NCBI RefSeq assembly: GCF_000022325.1 | Contig: NC_012034.1 | Coordinates: forward strand, 2,772,001 to 2,836,000 | Origin: Caldicellulosiruptor bescii DSM 6725 | Lineage (GTDB): Bacteria > Bacillota > Thermoanaerobacteria > Caldicellulosiruptorales > Caldicellulosiruptoraceae | Direction: 5' to 3' | DNA: 64,000 nucleotides | Shown here: positions 16,963 through 59,032 of the stretch, in pieces | How the letters are laid out: every line of letters begins with the position of its first letter | How positions within the stretch are numbered: the stretch's first letter is position 1 | Position numbers and translations under genes: made by a program | Notes under the pieces: model-generated | Databases searched by the model: none | Seen by the model: the letters and a program-made list of their open reading frames with translations, nothing else | What the model was told of the DNA's origin: nothing

Positions 16963-17125
16963 GTTTTTAGCCTCCCCTTTGGGGATTGAAACACGTAAAA
17001 AATAAGGAGTATGTAAGGGGTTTTTTGCAGTTTTTAGCCTCCCCTTTGGGGATTGAAACTAATTTTGATATTTTTCATAGTTAACACTTATCAGAGTTTT
17101 TAGCCTCCCCTTTGGGGATTGAAAC
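16963..17125 (+). CRISPR. three-repeat CRISPR array, variant repeat
   Basis: Repeats of 30 bp lie at 16963, 17030 and 17096, with spacers of 37 and 36 nt. They read GTTTTTAGCC then TCCCCTTTGGGGATTGAAAC, differing from the other arrays at base 5 (T for G). All three repeats share the variant, so it was copied during acquisition at this leader. The array stops abruptly 55 bp before the gene at 17181. Confidence 0.92.
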
Positions 17126-20651: not shown

Positions 20652-20681
20652 GTTTGTAGCCTACCCTTTGGGGATTGAAAC
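20652..20681 (+). CRISPR. solitary CRISPR repeat at a gene junction
   Basis: A full 30-bp repeat (GTTTGTAGCC, then TACCCTTTGGGGATTGAAAC) differs from the main-array type by one base. No second repeat or leader is within 3.5 kb. It separates a gene lacking its 3' end from a gene lacking its 5' end. Confidence 0.9.
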
Positions 20682-31919: not shown

Positions 31920-34900
31920 GTTTGTAGCCTTCCCTTTGGGGATTGAAACTCAATCTCCAAAACCTTTATATACTTAAAATCATAAAGTTTGTAGCCTTCC
32001 CTTTGGGGATTGAAACTCTTTACCATATGATAAGACTTTCCGCTTCCAGGTTTGTTTGTAGCCTTCCCTTTGGGGATTGAAACTTTATGATTTGTGTTTT
32101 TATTTCGAACTATGAGGAAGTTTGTAGCCTTCCCTTTGGGGATTGAAACATAAAAGCAATTAGTTTGTAACTAAGGTCATCTTTGAGTTTGTAGCCTTCC
32201 CTTTGGGGATTGAAACCAGCTTCAATCTCAAGTTTGTCTTGTTCATAATTGGTTTGTAGCCTTCCCTTTGGGGATTGAAACCTGCTTGGTTGCTTCAAGC
32301 TCTAAAACTTTGAGCTCGTTTGTAGCCTTCCCTTTGGGGATTGAAACTATGCATTATTTATGACAGAAATTTAGATAACGAAGGGTTTGTAGCCTTCCCT
32401 TTGGGGATTGAAACCAATATCTCGTATCTTCTCACTTGCCTTGTCTGTTGGTTTGTAGCCTTCCCTTTGGGGATTGAAACTATCTTGCCTTAGTAACAAT
32501 TGCCTTCTTTTGGTTCGTGTTTGTAGCCTTCCCTTTGGGGATTGAAACACTTTATTATCGTTCACAAGGTAGATAGATTTGCTCGGTTTGTAGCCTTCCC
32601 TTTGGGGATTGAAACGTGTACACATCTTTACCTTTTTTCAGATTATATACTGTTTGTAGCCTTCCCTTTGGGGATTGAAACACTTCTCGATTATTTTTGA
32701 AAATAACTTTTCCTGTATGTTTGTAGCCTTCCCTTTGGGGATTGAAACATGAACCTAGCATTCTTACAACTAAAAAACATAAATGTTTGTAGCCTTCCCT
32801 TTGGGGATTGAAACATTTTTCGACTTTGTTTGCATCGGTAAAGGATACAAGTTTGTAGCCTTCCCTTTGGGGATTGAAACTTCTTTTTAGGTTTTGTTGA
32901 TTGTTTTGAAATTTTAGTTTGTAGCCTTCCCTTTGGGGATTGAAACAAATTAATAGATGTAGAAGGTGAACCTTTCAAATATGAGTTTGTAGCCTTCCCT
33001 TTGGGGATTGAAACTTGTGTCTCATTCATTCTATCACTTCCTTATCCAACCAGTTTGTAGCCTTCCCTTTGGGGATTGAAACACTCTTTCTCTTCTCTTT
33101 CTCTCTCTTGCATCATCACGTTTGTAGCCTTCCCTTTGGGGATTGAAACCACGATAAGAAAAATGACGTAAGCAAATATTGTGCTGGTTTGTAGCCTTCC
33201 CTTTGGGGATTGAAACTAATTTCCTCCTTTCTAAATTTTAATCCCTAAATGGGTTTGTAGCCTTCCCTTTGGGGATTGAAACACAACTTTGAAGAAGCTC
33301 CACAGACCACGCAGAACGGTTTGTAGCCTTCCCTTTGGGGATTGAAACCTTAATGAGTTCGTTTTGCTTACGGATGGTTTCCAGTTTGTAGCCTTCCCTT
33401 TGGGGATTGAAACAGTGTTTGGCTATCAGCTGTGTTAGTTTGGTATGGTGTTTGTAGCCTTCCCTTTGGGGATTGAAACAAATTTATTGCTGATGCATTT
33501 AGTTCTTTAGGAAGTGTTTGTAGCCTTCCCTTTGGGGATTGAAACAAATTTTGAGTGAAATCTTTAGTGAAAGTGATTTGAGTTTGTAGCCTTCCCTTTG
33601 GGGATTGAAACTCATCTGCAACATGTTGTGCGCAGTTTCAATGAAATGTTTGTAGCCTTCCCTTTGGGGATTGAAACTATATATAACTTTGATATTTGTT
33701 ATTTTTAGACTTTTTGGTTTGTAGCCTTCCCTTTGGGGATTGAAACTCTTTTCCAAATCCACCGTCCCATCCTGTGGCACAGTTTGTAGCCTTCCCTTTG
33801 GGGATTGAAACATTGTATCATAGCTACATTTGTGTAAACACCTAAAGGTTTGTAGCCTTCCCTTTGGGGATTGAAACATTGTATCATAGCTACATTTGTG
33901 TAAACACCTAAAGGTTTGTAGCCTTCCCTTTGGGGATTGAAACCCCACTATCTTATCGTAGTAAGTCACAATAGCCGTGTTTGTAGCCTTCCCTTTGGGG
34001 ATTGAAACATGTAACCACTGATTCTAAACGTACTACTTAAAACTGTTTGTAGCCTTCCCTTTGGGGATTGAAACTTTCATAAAACCTCCTATGATTCTTA
34101 ATAATAGTCTTAGTTTGTAGCCTTCCCTTTGGGGATTGAAACTTTTTTCATTTTTCCATATCTCTGTCCAATATTCCCGTTTGTAGCCTTCCCTTTGGGG
34201 ATTGAAACAGATATAAAGATTTACTTTTGCTGTTATAAAATCATTGTTTGTAGCCTTCCCTTTGGGGATTGAAACATATCTCTTATCATAGACTTACAAT
34301 CATCATAATTGTTTGTAGCCTTCCCTTTGGGGATTGAAACCAAACTCTATTACTCTTTGTTCCAATTCTTCAGCCCGTTTGTAGCCTTCCCTTTGGGGAT
34401 TGAAACATAGCTCAGGTTTGTATAATACATCACCTGATTCAGGTTTGTAGCCTTCCCTTTGGGGATTGAAACAGATATACAAGCTTATTCTTGCCGTTAT
34501 AAAATTATTCGTTTGTAGCCTTCCCTTTGGGGATTGAAATATGAGAGTAACGCTATTAGAATGGTAATAAAGTGGGTTTGTAGCCTCCCCTTTGGGGATT
34601 GAAACGGTACAACAGCAAAAAATCCTCTTTATATGGCAAATGTTTGTAGCCTCCCCTTTGGGGATTGAAACAGGCTATCACAAGCCTTATCACCAGCGCC
34701 AATATAAAGTTTGTAGCCTCCCCTTTGGGGATTGAAACTTTGAATTTGACACAAGCAGTAACAGGAAGTGTAAATTGTTTGTAGCCTCCCCTTTGGGGAT
34801 TGAAACAAATTATTAAAGTTCTTCAAACAAAAGAAGAAATTGGTTTGTAGCCTCCCCTTTGGGGATTGAAACATGCCTTTAAATTGTAACCTCTCAATCC

Positions 34901-35402
34901 TTCTACAAGTTTGTAGCCTCCCCTTTGGGGATTGAAACGTAAAAATGGAGATACAATAAATGGAATACTTAATATGTTTGTAGCCTCCCCTTTGGGGATT
35001 GAAACAATTATAGTGGTAGTATACCTAATACTTTTCGTGTGTTTGTAGCCTCCCCTTTGGGGATTGAAACATAGAATATGTCTGCTTGGTGTATCGCAGG
35101 ATTTAGTTTGTAGCCTTCCCTTTGGGGATTGAAACTTTGTTCCAGCATTGTAAACTCCACTAGCTGGTGAATAGTTTGTAGCCTTCCCTTTGGGGATTGA
35201 AACAAGAAAAGCGAGGCTGTGAGGTTTTTAATGCAGAATGTTTGTAGCCTTCCCTTTGGGGATTGAAACTTACATTTTCTCTACCAAACTTCTCTGTTAT
35301 TCTTTATTTGTAGCCTTCCCTTTGGGGATTGAAACCTGGTAACCTGACTGTTGAATACTTGTCAAAAAGATTGTTTGTAGCCTCCCCTTTGGGGATTGAG
35401 GA
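31920..35402 (+). CRISPR. main CRISPR array, 53 repeats and 52 spacers
   Basis: The 30-bp repeat is GTTTGTAGCC + TTCCCTTTGGGGATTGAAAC, with spacers of about 34-39 nt. Repeats 1-40 and 49-52 have CTTCCC; repeats 41-48 and 53 have CTCCCC. Repeat 52 starts with A and the last repeat (35373) ends GATTGAGGA, the usual distal decay. One spacer is tandemly duplicated (33812-33847 and 33878-33913). The final eight bases ATTGAAAC would be the crRNA 5' handle. It is next to the I-B cas operon and transcribed away from it. Confidence 0.98.
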
Positions 35403-43604: not shown

Positions 43605-43925
43605 CCGAAAAAACAAAAACCGCAGAGAATCTGCGGTTTGATTTTTATTTTTTACATTTTTGTAGACGCATTTTGAATATATTGTTCCTGGTTGTTTTTA
43701 TTACATTCCTGTTCACCTATAAACACTATGCCTTCGTGTTTTGTTTTCGGGATGAATTTCTCATCCCTAGGCAGCAGGGCGCCAACACGAAGGAAAAGCC
43801 CCAATGCGCTTCTATATTTTACGTCCCGAAGCTAGGGAGAGGCTCGCTGCCACAGCCCGGTATGCTTTTAAGGTGCATACCACACCTTACTTGCTCTCTT
43901 CGATGAGTATTCTAAAAATCCTCTA
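43605..43925 (-). ncRNA. candidate structured non-coding RNA with own promoter and terminator
   Basis: The minus strand has a TATAAT at 43936-43931 with a weak TTTTCA 17 bp upstream. About 300 nt follow, and then a perfect 10-bp terminator (AAACCGCAGA / TCTGCGGTTT at 43630-43639 and 43617-43626) with T-runs. The middle (43700-43885) is clearly GC-richer than its surroundings. It holds CCTTCGTGTT/AACACGAAGG (43731/43784, 10 bp), GGGATGA/TCATCCC (43749/43761), GGTATGC/GCATACC (43859/43875) and GGCAGC/GCTGCC (43770/43846). The last would make a pseudoknot. No convincing ORF lies in it. I could not assign a known RNA family. Confidence 0.6.
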
Positions 43926-43964
43926 CTTTTATTATACCCTTCTTAGCTTAATTTGAAAACGTAT

Positions 43965-44040
43965 TTTTTATTTTTACATTTTTGTAGACGTATTTTTCAT
44001 ACACTTTCCCTGACAGTTTTTATTATATACTCTAACTTTA
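43965..44040 (-). promoter_or_regulatory. promoter and conserved leader element (second family)
   Basis: On the minus strand TTGCAA, 17 bp, TATAAT is followed by AAAAACTGTCAGG and, further on, GTCTACAAAAATGTAAAAAT. Further copies lie at 43645-43715 and 47640-47725, each followed by a terminator-like hairpin. Confidence 0.6.
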
Positions 44041-44499: not shown

Positions 44500-45815
44500 T
44501 TAAAATAAAATTGTGTCCACTGTATAATTAGTATTGAAATAATCACCAAAGGGGGTTCACGATTATGGAGAAAAATGAAATTTTTGAGACCGCTAAAAAT
44601 ATGGCTATCGAACAAGTGCTAAATATGTATTGCTTCCTGTGATGATCCTACTCGCCCAGCTCTAAAACAGCTAAAAGTAAAACTTGCTCGATTGCTTTAT
44701 GTTATCAGAAAGAACTGTTTACCTTGCTAAAAACGAAAACGACAAAGGCAATGGCTTCTATGAAAGAAAACTTGCAACACCTGCCTTGTGTCTTGAAATC
44801 TCTGTCCCTCGTACACGTTCTGATAACTTTCGACCTTCTATTCTCTTCTTTCCGCTACAAAAGAGTTGATAGTTCATACACTGACCTGCTTATGTCGCAA
44901 GTACATCAATGGTCATTCTTGAGCGTTCCCTTGTCCAGACTTTGAAAGCTTTGAATCTTCCATATTCCGAAAATGAAATACTAAAAATCAAAGAAGACCT
45001 TAAAAATGAGCTTCAGTTATTCAAACAAAGAGAACTACCAACAAGTGCTTTTGCTCTCATCATCGATGGTTATCATTGTGAAGTTAAGGATAATTCTAAG
45101 GTTAAACAAGCTACTTGTAATACCAGCCTCGGTATCGACTCAAGAAAGGTAAAAAAGACATTTTCGGTGTCTACACTTTCTTCGGCAAAGAAAATAAGGC
45201 TGATTGGATGAAAGTTTTTGAAGACTTAATTACAAGAGGGCTAAAAGAGATTCTAATTGTCATAAGTGATGACTTCCCTGGTATTATAGATGCTGTCAAA
45301 CTTGCTTATCCTCTTGCTGACCTTGAGCTTGCTTTTGTCCACCTCCAATGAAATAGCAGAAAACATATGACAAAAGAGGATGCTTCAGCTTTTAACAAGA
45401 GTTTAGACAGACTTAGAATTTCTTCCTCCGATTTTGACGAAGCTGTACTGAAATTTAAAGAACTTTGCGATGGATACCTTTCAAAATATCCTCGATTTTA
45501 TTGCTGCAATATCAGAAAAAGCAGAGTTTTATTCTGTTCATATGAAATACCCTGAGGAATTAAGGAAGCATATCTACACCACAAACGCCGTTGAAAGTGT
45601 AAATAGCATGATTGAAAAGATTAGAGTAAATTCAGGTGGATACTTTCAGTCTGTTGAAGTCTTAGAAATTAATATTTACTTACAGCGGGAGAACTTACGC
45701 CGTACAAAATGGAAAAATGGAGTTCCCAGCATTAGAAAATGCATTAACAACATAACCCAACTCTATAATTTGCGTTATAAATTGGAAACACAAAATTCTT
45801 GACAAGTCTCGATTC
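44500..45815 (+). mobile_element. IS256/mutator-type element inserted in an ISLre2 element
   Basis: Approximate ends: AAAATTGTGTCCA near 44508 and, in reverse complement, AATTTTGTGTTTCCA near 45800, a short imperfect inverted repeat. The element lies between the two halves of the ISLre2 transposase gene. Exact boundaries and target duplication could not be fixed by eye. Confidence 0.65.
44564..45802 (+). pseudogene. mutator-type (IS256) transposase with frameshifts and stops
   Basis: ATG at 44564 starts MEKNEIFETAKNMAIEQVLN, but the frame breaks several times. Recognisable pieces are LQLFKQRELPTSAFALIIDG, ILIVISDDFPGIIDAVKLAY and ELRKHIYTTNAVESVNSMIE, the last being the IS256 hallmark around the catalytic Glu. 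An in-frame stop after FVHLQ and at least two shifts make it inactive. Confidence 0.82.
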
Positions 45816-47517: not shown

Positions 47518-47639
47518 AATCTGCAAACCCCCTTTTTACGGCAAACTTCCAGGGGGCATATTGCCTTATATTTAGATTATACCACAAAACCAATCAGTTA
47601 TGCTACTAAAAACAAAAACCACAACTTTTGCTGCGGCAG

Positions 47640-47725
47640 TTTCTATTTTTACATTTTTGTAGACAGGTTTTGAATATGGTTTCCTCAACTGTTTTTATTA
47701 TACATCCGAGTTTCAGTTTTTTCAA
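47640..47725 (-). promoter_or_regulatory. promoter and conserved leader of the second Rpn gene
   Basis: On the minus strand TTGAAA, 17 bp, TATAAT, then AAAAACAGTTGAGGAAACC and GTCTACAAAAATGTAAAAAT. This is followed by a hairpin (CCGCAGC / GTTGTGG with wobble pairs) and TTTTTGTTTTT at about 47605-47630. The layout matches the other attenuator-like leaders but without a basic leader ORF. Confidence 0.6.
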
Positions 47726-56425: not shown

Positions 56426-59032
56426 GTTTGTAGCCTCCCCTTTGGGGATTGAAATAGGCTTTCTAAAATTTCTTCAACGTCTTTTTTGCTTGGTTTGTAG
56501 CCTCCCCTTTGGGGATTGAAATAAAAAGCTGAGGAAAGTGATTTTCTATCAGGACGAGTTTGTAGCCTCCCCTTTGGGGATTGAAATTTGCTAAAAATGT
56601 CGCAAAAACCGTTATACCAGCTGGTTTGTAGCCTCCCCTTTGGGGATTGAAATTGCCTTATTGATGAATTATCTATGATAGATTTAAAGTTTGTAGCCTC
56701 CCCTTTGGGGATTGAAATAGGGAATTGTAAAGAAGGAAAATACCAGCTGTGATGGTTTGTAGCCTCCCCTTTGGGGATTGAAATCAATATTTTCATAGCT
56801 TTCATACACATAATTTTCAGTTTGTAGCCTCCCCTTTGGGGATTGAAATATAATTTTCATTTGTACATAAATGGTGTTGAAGCAAGTTTGTAGCCTCCCC
56901 TTTGGGGATTGAAATAATCCTTTTAACCTCATGGGTCGTGTAGGGAGTAGGTTTGTAGCCTCCCCTTTGGGGATTGAAATTCTTAAGACCACTTTTTGTT
57001 TTAACAAGTTTAACAGTTTGTAGCCTCCCCTTTGGGGATTGAAATTTAACCTCTTGTCTCCATCAGGAACTGGAGCAAGAGTTTGTAGCCTCCCCTTTGG
57101 GGATTGAAATCGGGGATGTTTTTACCTGCCCAATTTTCGATGACTAGTTTGTAGCCTCCCCTTTGGGGATTGAAATATTTCACAGATGATGCAGTTAGGC
57201 GTTCTTACAATAGTTTGTAGCCTCCCCTTTGGGGATTGAAATGCTGGCTGGGTTCTGTTAGTTTTTTTCAGTGTCGCCCGTTTGTAGCCTCCCCTTTGGG
57301 GATTGAAATGCAAAAAATCAAGTACTTTTTTTATTTTTTAAAGTTTGTAGCCTCCCCTTTGGGGATTGAAATGCATTAATTCTTTTTCTGTTTCAGCTAA
57401 CATAGCCGGTTTGTAGCCTCCCCTTTGGGGATTGAAATATTTTTTGAATGAGATAATGCAGAAGACGAAAGGAGAGTTTGTAGCCTCCCCTTTGGGGATT
57501 GAAATAAGAAATAGAGAGAAAAAGAAAAGAAGAACAACAAAGTTTGTAGCCTCCCCTTTGGGGATTGAAATTTTGCTTTGCTTATCCCTTTAGCTTTGCT
57601 GCTTACTAGTTTGTAGCCTCCCCTTTGGGGATTGAAATCTATTTCAGTAGTTGCTAATGGTTTGTCAACGTCTTGTTTGTAGCCTCCCCTTTGGGGATTG
57701 AAATTTTTACAATTACTATTATACTCGAAATTTTTATTTTGTTTGTAGCCTCCCCTTTGGGGATTGAAATTAACCGGCTCTCCTGTTACCCTTATAACAC
57801 TTGTTCGTTTGTAGCCTCCCCTTTGGGGATTGAAATGTGCGGTATCTGGAAAAGATTTTGTAATTCAAGATTGTTTGTAGCCTCCCCTTTGGGGATTGAA
57901 ATAACGTTTTAAAAAGGATGGCTGAAGGTGAACGTGTTGTTTGTAGCCTCCCCTTTGGGGATTGAAATTGGAGAAATCAGGTAAACTGTCCATAACGTCC
58001 TCAATGGTTTGTAGCCTCCCCTTTGGGGATTGAAATGCATTAATTCTTTTTCTGTTTCAGCTAACATAGCCGGTTTGTAGCCTCCCCTTTGGGGATTGAA
58101 ATATTTTTTGAATGAGATAATGCAGAAGACGAAAGGAGAGTTTGTAGCCTCCCCTTTGGGGATTGAAACTAATATAGCAGAGCTATACTTTGTAGTGTTT
58201 CTTCAGTTTGTAGCCTCCCCTTTGGGGATTGAAACTTTTCATCTATGATGTCCATCAACTTTTCAACAGTGTTTGTAGCCTCCCCTTTGGGGATTGAAAC
58301 ACAATGTACATTAATCTGTCAGGGAATATTGCTTTTGTTTGTAGCCTCCCCTTTGGGGATTGAAATAAGAAATAGAGAGAAAAAGAAAAGAAGAACAACA
58401 AAGTTTGTAGCCTCCCCTTTGGGGATTGAAATATATTTGACCTTCTTACCACCTCAATCACCCTCTTAGTTTGTAGCCTCCCCTTTGGGGATTGAAATTA
58501 ACCGGCTCTCCTGTTACCCTTATAACACTTGTTCGTTTGTAGCCTCCCCTTTGGGGATTGAAATGTGCGGTATCTGGAAAAGATTTTGTAATTCAAGATT
58601 GTTTGTAGCCTCCCCTTTGGGGATTGAAATTGTGAAATATTCTGTTTTGTTTCTTCTTCAAATATAGTTTGTAGCCTCCCCTTTGGGGATTGAAACCATC
58701 GAGTAATGCGGACTGCAACTTCTCATAATCATGTTTGTAGCCTCCCCTTTGGGGATTGAAACCACACCTCACCTTCTTTTAACTGCTTTTCAATTTCCTG
58801 GTTTGTAGCCTCCCCTTTGGGGATTGAAACACATAAGTAAAAACGGTAAAACTAAGTAGAACAAAAAGGTTTGTAGCCTCCCCTTTGGGGATTGAAATAA
58901 GAGCTTGAAGATTATATAAAACAAAAAAACACAATGTTTGTAGCCTCCCCTTTGGGGATTGAAACTGACAATTAAAGCATATCAAAATGCCTCAGTAGCA
59001 TAGTTTGTAGCCTCCCCGTTGGGGATTAATAA
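56426..59032 (+). CRISPR. second large CRISPR array, 40 repeats and 39 spacers
   Basis: 30-bp repeats GTTTGTAGCC + TCCCCTTTGGGGATTGAAAT or ...GAAAC, with spacers of about 33-38 nt. Repeats 1-26, 30-34 and 38 end in T; 27-29, 35-37 and 39 end in C; repeat 40 (59003) is degenerate. Five spacers occur twice (spacers 15, 16, 17, 21, 22 again as 25, 26, 30, 32, 33), showing a block duplication. No cas genes adjoin; the I-B operon 25 kb away probably serves it. Confidence 0.98.

Follow-up and report, generated by a model that had tools for sequence, protein, structure and literature searches.

A knotted intergenic RNA of Caldicellulosiruptor bescii as the probable orphan partner of a PBECR4 nuclease

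What is the GC-rich island at 43605-43925 of the window, the 64,000 nucleotides of Caldicellulosiruptor bescii DSM 6725 analysed here (NC_012034.1, positions 2,772,001 to 2,836,000 of the forward strand)? A sequence-only reading had proposed a stand-alone structured RNA of about 320 nt that matched no nameable class. The island was found to be GC-rich, structured and intergenic as described, and the RNA strand was the minus strand. The TATAAT box and strong terminator said to bracket the RNA on this strand were both confirmed, at 43936-43931 and 43639-43617. The former was the -10 element of a sigma-70-type promoter (43931..43959, minus strand) with a -35 element TTTTCA at 43959-43954 and a spacing of 17 nt; the latter was an intrinsic terminator (43617..43639, minus strand) consisting of a 10-bp stem and a following T run. 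Two terminator-like sites were observed on the minus strand against 0.3 expected. The positions of promoter and terminator predict a transcript of approximately 317 nt (43608..43924, minus strand). The minus-strand RNA (43935-43605) had a minimum free energy of -98.8 kcal/mol and a z of -5.5 against shuffles. A plus-strand RNA was rejected, having a weaker fold (z -3.9) and no convincing promoter. The longest ORFs at the locus encoded 50-77 aa and overlapped the structured core. The proposed size, promoter, terminator and strand thus stood, and the term "stand-alone" was limited to the window copy because the same RNA partners a downstream PBECR4 gene in two related genomes (G002 and G001), and modules of this RNA-terminator-nuclease kind were found to be widespread.

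When the whole window was scanned against Rfam, there was no match at the gathering score except to CRISPR repeats. CRISPR-DR2 arrays lay elsewhere in the window, at 16963-17125, 20652-20681, 31920-35269 and 58140-58965, in a region rich in defence genes. A lax Rfam scan of the locus gave nothing below an E of 0.1, the best being a terminator-driven chance match, and BLASTN against plasmids gave no match. The RNA is therefore of no nameable class by Rfam, but its 3' module shares the interlocked topology of drum RNA.

The conserved structured core spanned 157 nt (43731..43887, minus strand, as are all features of the core) and contained three pseudoknot units. All helices reported from the sequence alone were present: P3 (10 bp, 43793-43784/43740-43731), hairpin P4 (7 bp, 43767-43761/43755-43749), a helix at 43881-43876/43864-43859 and a pseudoknot at 43851-43846/43775-43770. 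The third of these was the 6-bp S2 (GGUAUG/CAUACC) of H-type pseudoknot 1 (43859..43887), whose S1 was AGGUG/CACCU at 43887-43883/43875-43871. Its two stems and A-rich linker UAAAAG follow the strand order AGGUG-U-GGUAUG-CACCU-UAAAAG-CAUACC. H-type pseudoknot 2 (43808..43838), with S1 UCCC/GGGA, S2 GCUUC/GAAGC and A-rich linker CGUAAAAUAUA, had the order UCCC-UA-GCUUC-GGGA-CGUAAAAUAUA-GAAGC, unchanged in four copies. The pseudoknot predicted earlier was the interlocking one: GGCAGC (43846..43851), inside the loop of a GGCU/AGCC hairpin (43857-43841), pairs over 6 bp with GCUGCC (43770..43775), which stands immediately 5' of UAG, as in drum RNA. In the drum-like 3' module (43731..43801), GGGC/GCCC (43801-43798/43780-43777) lies around the 5' strand of P3 and is followed by GCUGCC, UAG (43769-43767), hairpin P4 (43767-43749), A-rich GAAAACAA and the 3' strand of P3 (43740-43731). 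A further helix at the 5' end, P1 (GAGAG/CUCUC), was dropped; the segment is missing from G001.

Two A-rich H-type pseudoknots together, as found in the core, occurred in 0 of 300 dinucleotide shuffles, and the best H-type pseudoknot score of the core (12) was unreached in 300 dinucleotide shuffles. Nine helices, comprising 51 pairs, emerged from the four-copy alignment and inspection; 99.5% of the cells paired, compared with 35-46% in slid versions. Variable columns were more frequent at unpaired (9 of 56) than at paired positions (4 of 102; p = 0.013). Two of the four paired changes made up a compensatory G-C to C-G exchange in the long-range pseudoknot of the G001 copy (L012). Another, G-C to G-U in the G010 copy (L011), preserves S1 of H-type pseudoknot 1, and the last was a terminal mismatch of P3 in the same, truncated copy. 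The check for compensatory changes thus yielded one double change in four sequences; the observed covariation score was reached by 123 of 500 shuffles, a test that is weak because the four congeneric copies are near-identical.

The homologue search of the core covered 61 related genomes. The core was detected in three other congeneric genomes (G002, G010 and G001) with 94-99% identity, and the TATAAT box 5' of it was kept in all three. In G002 (L010) and G001 (L012), the order was promoter, RNA, intrinsic terminator, ribosome-binding site and a 204-aa gene. The product of this gene was PBECR4 (PF18813), a predicted endoribonuclease, with E values of 9.9e-16 and 1.4e-14, respectively, well over the cut-off. 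In G010 (L011), the RNA was cut just 3' of its last helix and was followed by an AbiD/AbiF-like gene, beside which it apparently came to lie through rearrangement. This gene was rejected as the true partner since a promoter-like sequence and a leader of its own precede it. The stretch in front of it (L048 4900-5010; L011 1780-1870) was short and structured-looking, had no Rfam match and is possibly an unrecognised abiF-type RNA.

The window sequence departed from that of G002 approximately 18 nt past the last helix and ran on into a repeat that carries a different terminator. No PBECR4 was found in the genome of the window at E ≤ 1e-3, and the window copy of the RNA is therefore an orphan. The best explanation is that the window module lost its nuclease gene and terminator, a leader repeat with another terminator standing in their place. 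The RNA had been said to end in the same leader element that precedes an Rpn gene; this element was indeed repetitive, with many copies in each genome, and lay both at the 3' end of the RNA and upstream. One copy of this genus-specific repeat (43640..43710, minus strand) occupies the place of the terminator and PBECR4 gene of G002. The second (43963..44028, minus strand) lies 5' of the RNA promoter, and in the same place in G002 and G010. Further copies were seen at 47608-47700 of the window (minus strand) and in L044, L045, L046 and L049. The repeat has the form TTGCAAAA..GTGTATAATAAAAnCAG..CTGTCTACAAAAATGTAAAAATA, and in many cases a terminator and a second promoter come after it; it stands before many accessory genes, which encode Rpn nucleases and HicA/HicB-like, PIN-like, HTH/IrrE-like, AbiD/F-like and PBECR4 proteins. 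It resembles a junction of cassettes, an insulator or a family of small RNAs.

Transposase-like reading frames stood in several pieces on the plus strand at 44560-45800, apparently a decayed insertion sequence. This broken transposase and the repeats that flank the RNA would fit an origin of the RNA as an insertion sequence end or as part of another mobile element. However, the core adjoins PBECR4 in G001 and G002 with no such transposase in the flanks read, and the repeats on either side are common to many cassette genes. The check for an insertion sequence end showed no terminal repeats, CRISPR matches only elsewhere, and conservation of the RNA without a neighbouring transposase, leaving a mobile-element origin very improbable.

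Two distant PBECR4 genes, one in each of two further genomes (G065 and G253), were likewise preceded by a promoter, a GC-rich region and a terminator. These GC-rich regions were drum RNA (RF02958 of Rfam), with 52.3 and 43.0 bits, respectively. RF02958 was searched in 150 genomes, each from a different genus of the G253 family, and in 398 genomes of the phylum, about 550 in total; 16 matches were obtained in the former and 2 in the latter. Among these 18 drums, 11 were directly followed by an intact PBECR4 gene, 4 by one that had decayed to frameshifts or remnants, and 3 by none. PF18813 was matched by 16 of 16 aligned proteins encoded downstream of such RNAs. When loci were selected by protein alone (81 PBECR4 loci from Lachnospiraceae, other Clostridia and Treponema), 79 had a co-directional drum immediately 5' of the gene at a distance of 8-123 nt (median 57); the query peptide was itself from the drum-linked subfamily, to which this sample is therefore biased. 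In a less biased Pfam sample (150 genomes), approximately 14 of 34 PBECR4 genes had a drum. At one locus (L123), two extra drums (2275-2386 and 2655-2767), each with its own promoter and terminator and without a nuclease, adjoined a full drum-PBECR4 module.

Drum and the window RNA family have in common that they are upstream partners of PBECR4 (in G002 and G001 for the latter) with an intervening terminator. They also share the same interlock: a loop strand pairs just before UAG, and a hairpin, an A-rich GAAA..AAAA and the closing strand of the outer helix follow. The long-range pseudoknot of drum paired in 97% of cells, and 5 of its 5 pairs covaried. A descriptor of the interlock (Z-Y-Z'-X-UAG-hairpin-A-rich-Y', with X' upstream) recovered 45 of 80 drums. 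In the 64-kb window it reached a score of 26 at the RNA locus, whereas 300 window shuffles never exceeded 24; this result is supportive, not independent, because the descriptor was written after both RNAs were known. Formal membership of the drum family was rejected. The window RNA had no RF02958 match at E ≤ 10, a custom covariance model of the 18 drums gave only 2.5 bits (E about 1, at 43774-43740), and the relatives of the window RNA were also unrecognised by the drum model. Further, P1/P2 and the k-turn of drum had no equivalent conserved pairing in the window RNA, whose 5' extension is absent in G001. The window RNA also differed from drum by its two additional H-type pseudoknots and by a P3 of 10 bp rather than 3.

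Most PBECR4 genes without a drum had other structured RNAs upstream by inspection, and a rule-found terminator preceded 16 of 18. A-rich H-type pseudoknots were in excess before these genes (24 compared with 4.8 expected). At L090, L098 and L102, units such as AAGGUCGGAACAGAGACCUUAAACCUGUUCC were built like AAGGUGUGGUAUGCACCUUAAAAGCAUACC, H-type pseudoknot 1 of the window. Tandem H-type pseudoknot RNAs of a type III antitoxin-like kind were seen before PBECR4 at these three loci and at L093 and L094; an Rfam scan of all but L102 gave no match. Strand-exchanging pseudoknot units, in which the 5' loop pairs with the last tail, preceded PBECR4 at L071, L072, L075, L077, L080, L083 and L085, and an Rfam scan of these RNAs gave no match either. 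The pairing showed covarying changes, for example GCUGA/UCAGC, GGUUGA/UCAACC and GACUGG/CCAGUC in the group L071, L072, L075, L077, L083 and L085. In its predicted structure, the window RNA has a unit type common to one of the non-drum groups and a 3' module common to drum. PBECR4 probably forms a widespread, undescribed class of RNA-neutralised toxins whose antitoxins have at least three knotted architectures (drum, three-unit strand-exchanging and tandem H-type), two of them joined in the window RNA; we hold this broader proposal somewhat less firmly than the reading of the window RNA given below.

For PBECR domains, metal-independent RNase activity has been predicted, with an active site made up of a first-helix His and a Ser/Thr in the C-terminal part (PMC5512222). 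The His was invariant in 25 of 25 aligned PBECR4 proteins, and a Ser/Thr was present on the C-terminal strand in most of them by inspection. A comparison of PBECR4 with PDB sequences gave no significant match. For the G002 protein, AF2 gave a mediocre model (pLDDT 74), and the fold search with it returned nothing. The model of a drum-linked PBECR4 (L059) had a pLDDT of 93; its fold search gave no match in the PDB and two unnamed proteins in a viral library (TM about 0.65). Kinship of PBECR4 with ToxN is unsupported and the nuclease fold unconfirmed because neither sequence nor fold matched the PDB. PADLOC and NCBIfam had no match for the PBECR4 protein, and tblastn of the G002 protein against plasmids and phages gave none.

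The modules in G002 and G001 and at the drum loci resemble type III toxin-antitoxin systems (ToxIN, CptIN, TenpIN), which likewise have a pseudoknot RNA, a terminator and a predicted endoribonuclease gene in the same direction; the window copy differs in that the toxin gene is missing. The type III antitoxin CptI forms an H-type pseudoknot and depends on its A-rich loop to neutralise the toxin (PMC4627078), and its A-rich L2 loops resemble those of the window RNA. By contrast, the RNA of ToxIN is made of near-identical tandem repeats, whereas the window RNA is one composite RNA. The type III toxins ToxN, CptN, TenpN and AbiQ are mutually homologous (PMC12373285), and the partner here is PBECR4 by Pfam, not ToxN/AbiQ. 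Because of this, and because the drum covariance model fails, the RNA was classed as working like drum and type III RNAs and not as a member of either. The AbiF system with its abiF RNA motif (RF03085) also has the order of ncRNA, terminator and toxin gene. Antitoxin activity was shown for this ncRNA, which lies before abiF in a promoter-RNA-terminator-toxin layout and neutralises the toxin by direct binding (PMC12373285); the protein family and RNA fold differ from PBECR4 and the window RNA.

The layout, the pseudoknots with A-rich loops, the orphan RNAs, the decayed nuclease genes and the precedents of CptI and abiF argue that the RNA is a PBECR4 antitoxin. We put the probability at roughly 0.7 that the window RNA is the RNA component of a type III-like toxin-antitoxin module with PBECR4 as the toxin, which it would neutralise. 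The analysis shows the RNA structure by prediction and comparison, its place before PBECR4 in relatives, the architecture shared with drum and other RNAs before PBECR4 genes, and the absence of PBECR4 from the genome; that the RNA is transcribed, binds the protein and neutralises it, that PBECR4 acts as an RNase and that the module serves in defence, we infer. In an intact module, one promoter would drive the pseudoknotted RNA. The RNA would be in excess because the intrinsic terminator is proposed to keep most transcripts short, and read-through would yield the PBECR4 mRNA. The RNA, with its chain of H-type pseudoknots, A-rich loops and interlocking helix, would bind PBECR4 and hold the nuclease inactive. 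Loss of the RNA, for example upon transcription shut-off by a phage, would then free the nuclease.

The orphan RNA of the window may still neutralise incoming PBECR4, or it may be a relic. That it is a dead remnant of a broken module, now functionless, is compatible with the antitoxin explanation, and we judge it to be a little short of even odds. The genome has no PBECR4, a leader repeat lies at the breakpoint, and a 57-nt fragment of the RNA was stranded elsewhere in G002 (L024), all consistent with decay. However, the core is intact, and promoter and replacement terminator are present; the near-identity to G002 may reflect no more than recent divergence.

The same layout could serve a cis-acting leader, attenuator- or riboswitch-like, which would govern read-through into PBECR4 without effect on the protein. 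In the modules examined, RNA and gene were separated by a terminator, and the RNA of AbiF has also been described as riboswitch-like in its effect on expression (PMC12373285). However, gene-less RNAs with their own promoter and terminator were found (the window copy, L058, L062, L101 and the two L123 drums), and by inspection the terminator stem did not overlap the pseudoknot helices. We consider a leader of this kind unlikely. It is less likely still that the RNA is a cofactor or guide required for PBECR4 activity, as in RNA-guided nucleases. In favour of such a role, the large conserved RNA structure nearly always adjoins the nuclease gene, but neither drum nor the window RNA had a spacer-like variable region, pseudoknots with A-rich loops are the architecture of type III antitoxins, and several loci keep the RNA while the toxin gene has decayed.

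The antitoxin reading would extend beyond this locus. For drum, an orphan RNA family, a k-turn has been measured, and no function was given for it in the literature found. Its link to PBECR4 at 79 of 81 loci makes its function directly testable; a role as PBECR4 antitoxin, if true, would give this Rfam orphan family its function. The literature search found no mention of PBECR4 and no paper joining PBECR with an RNA antitoxin; an earlier report of the link between drum and PBECR4 is possible, since preprints and the first description of drum lay outside the search. AbiF is a recent example of an RNA-held toxin, and PBECR4 would be a further such family. Orphan antitoxin RNAs could then be taken as marks left by toxin modules that have been lost.

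PBECR4 ranged over several clostridial groups, Treponema, Enterococcus plasmids and a viral contig. The gene on an Enterococcus plasmid (L069 2838-3585) had a drum-like RNA of 43.8 bits and was adjoined by genes for a TIR-domain protein and an AAA ATPase. On the viral contig (IMG/VR, L184), the PBECR4 gene had a drum upstream.
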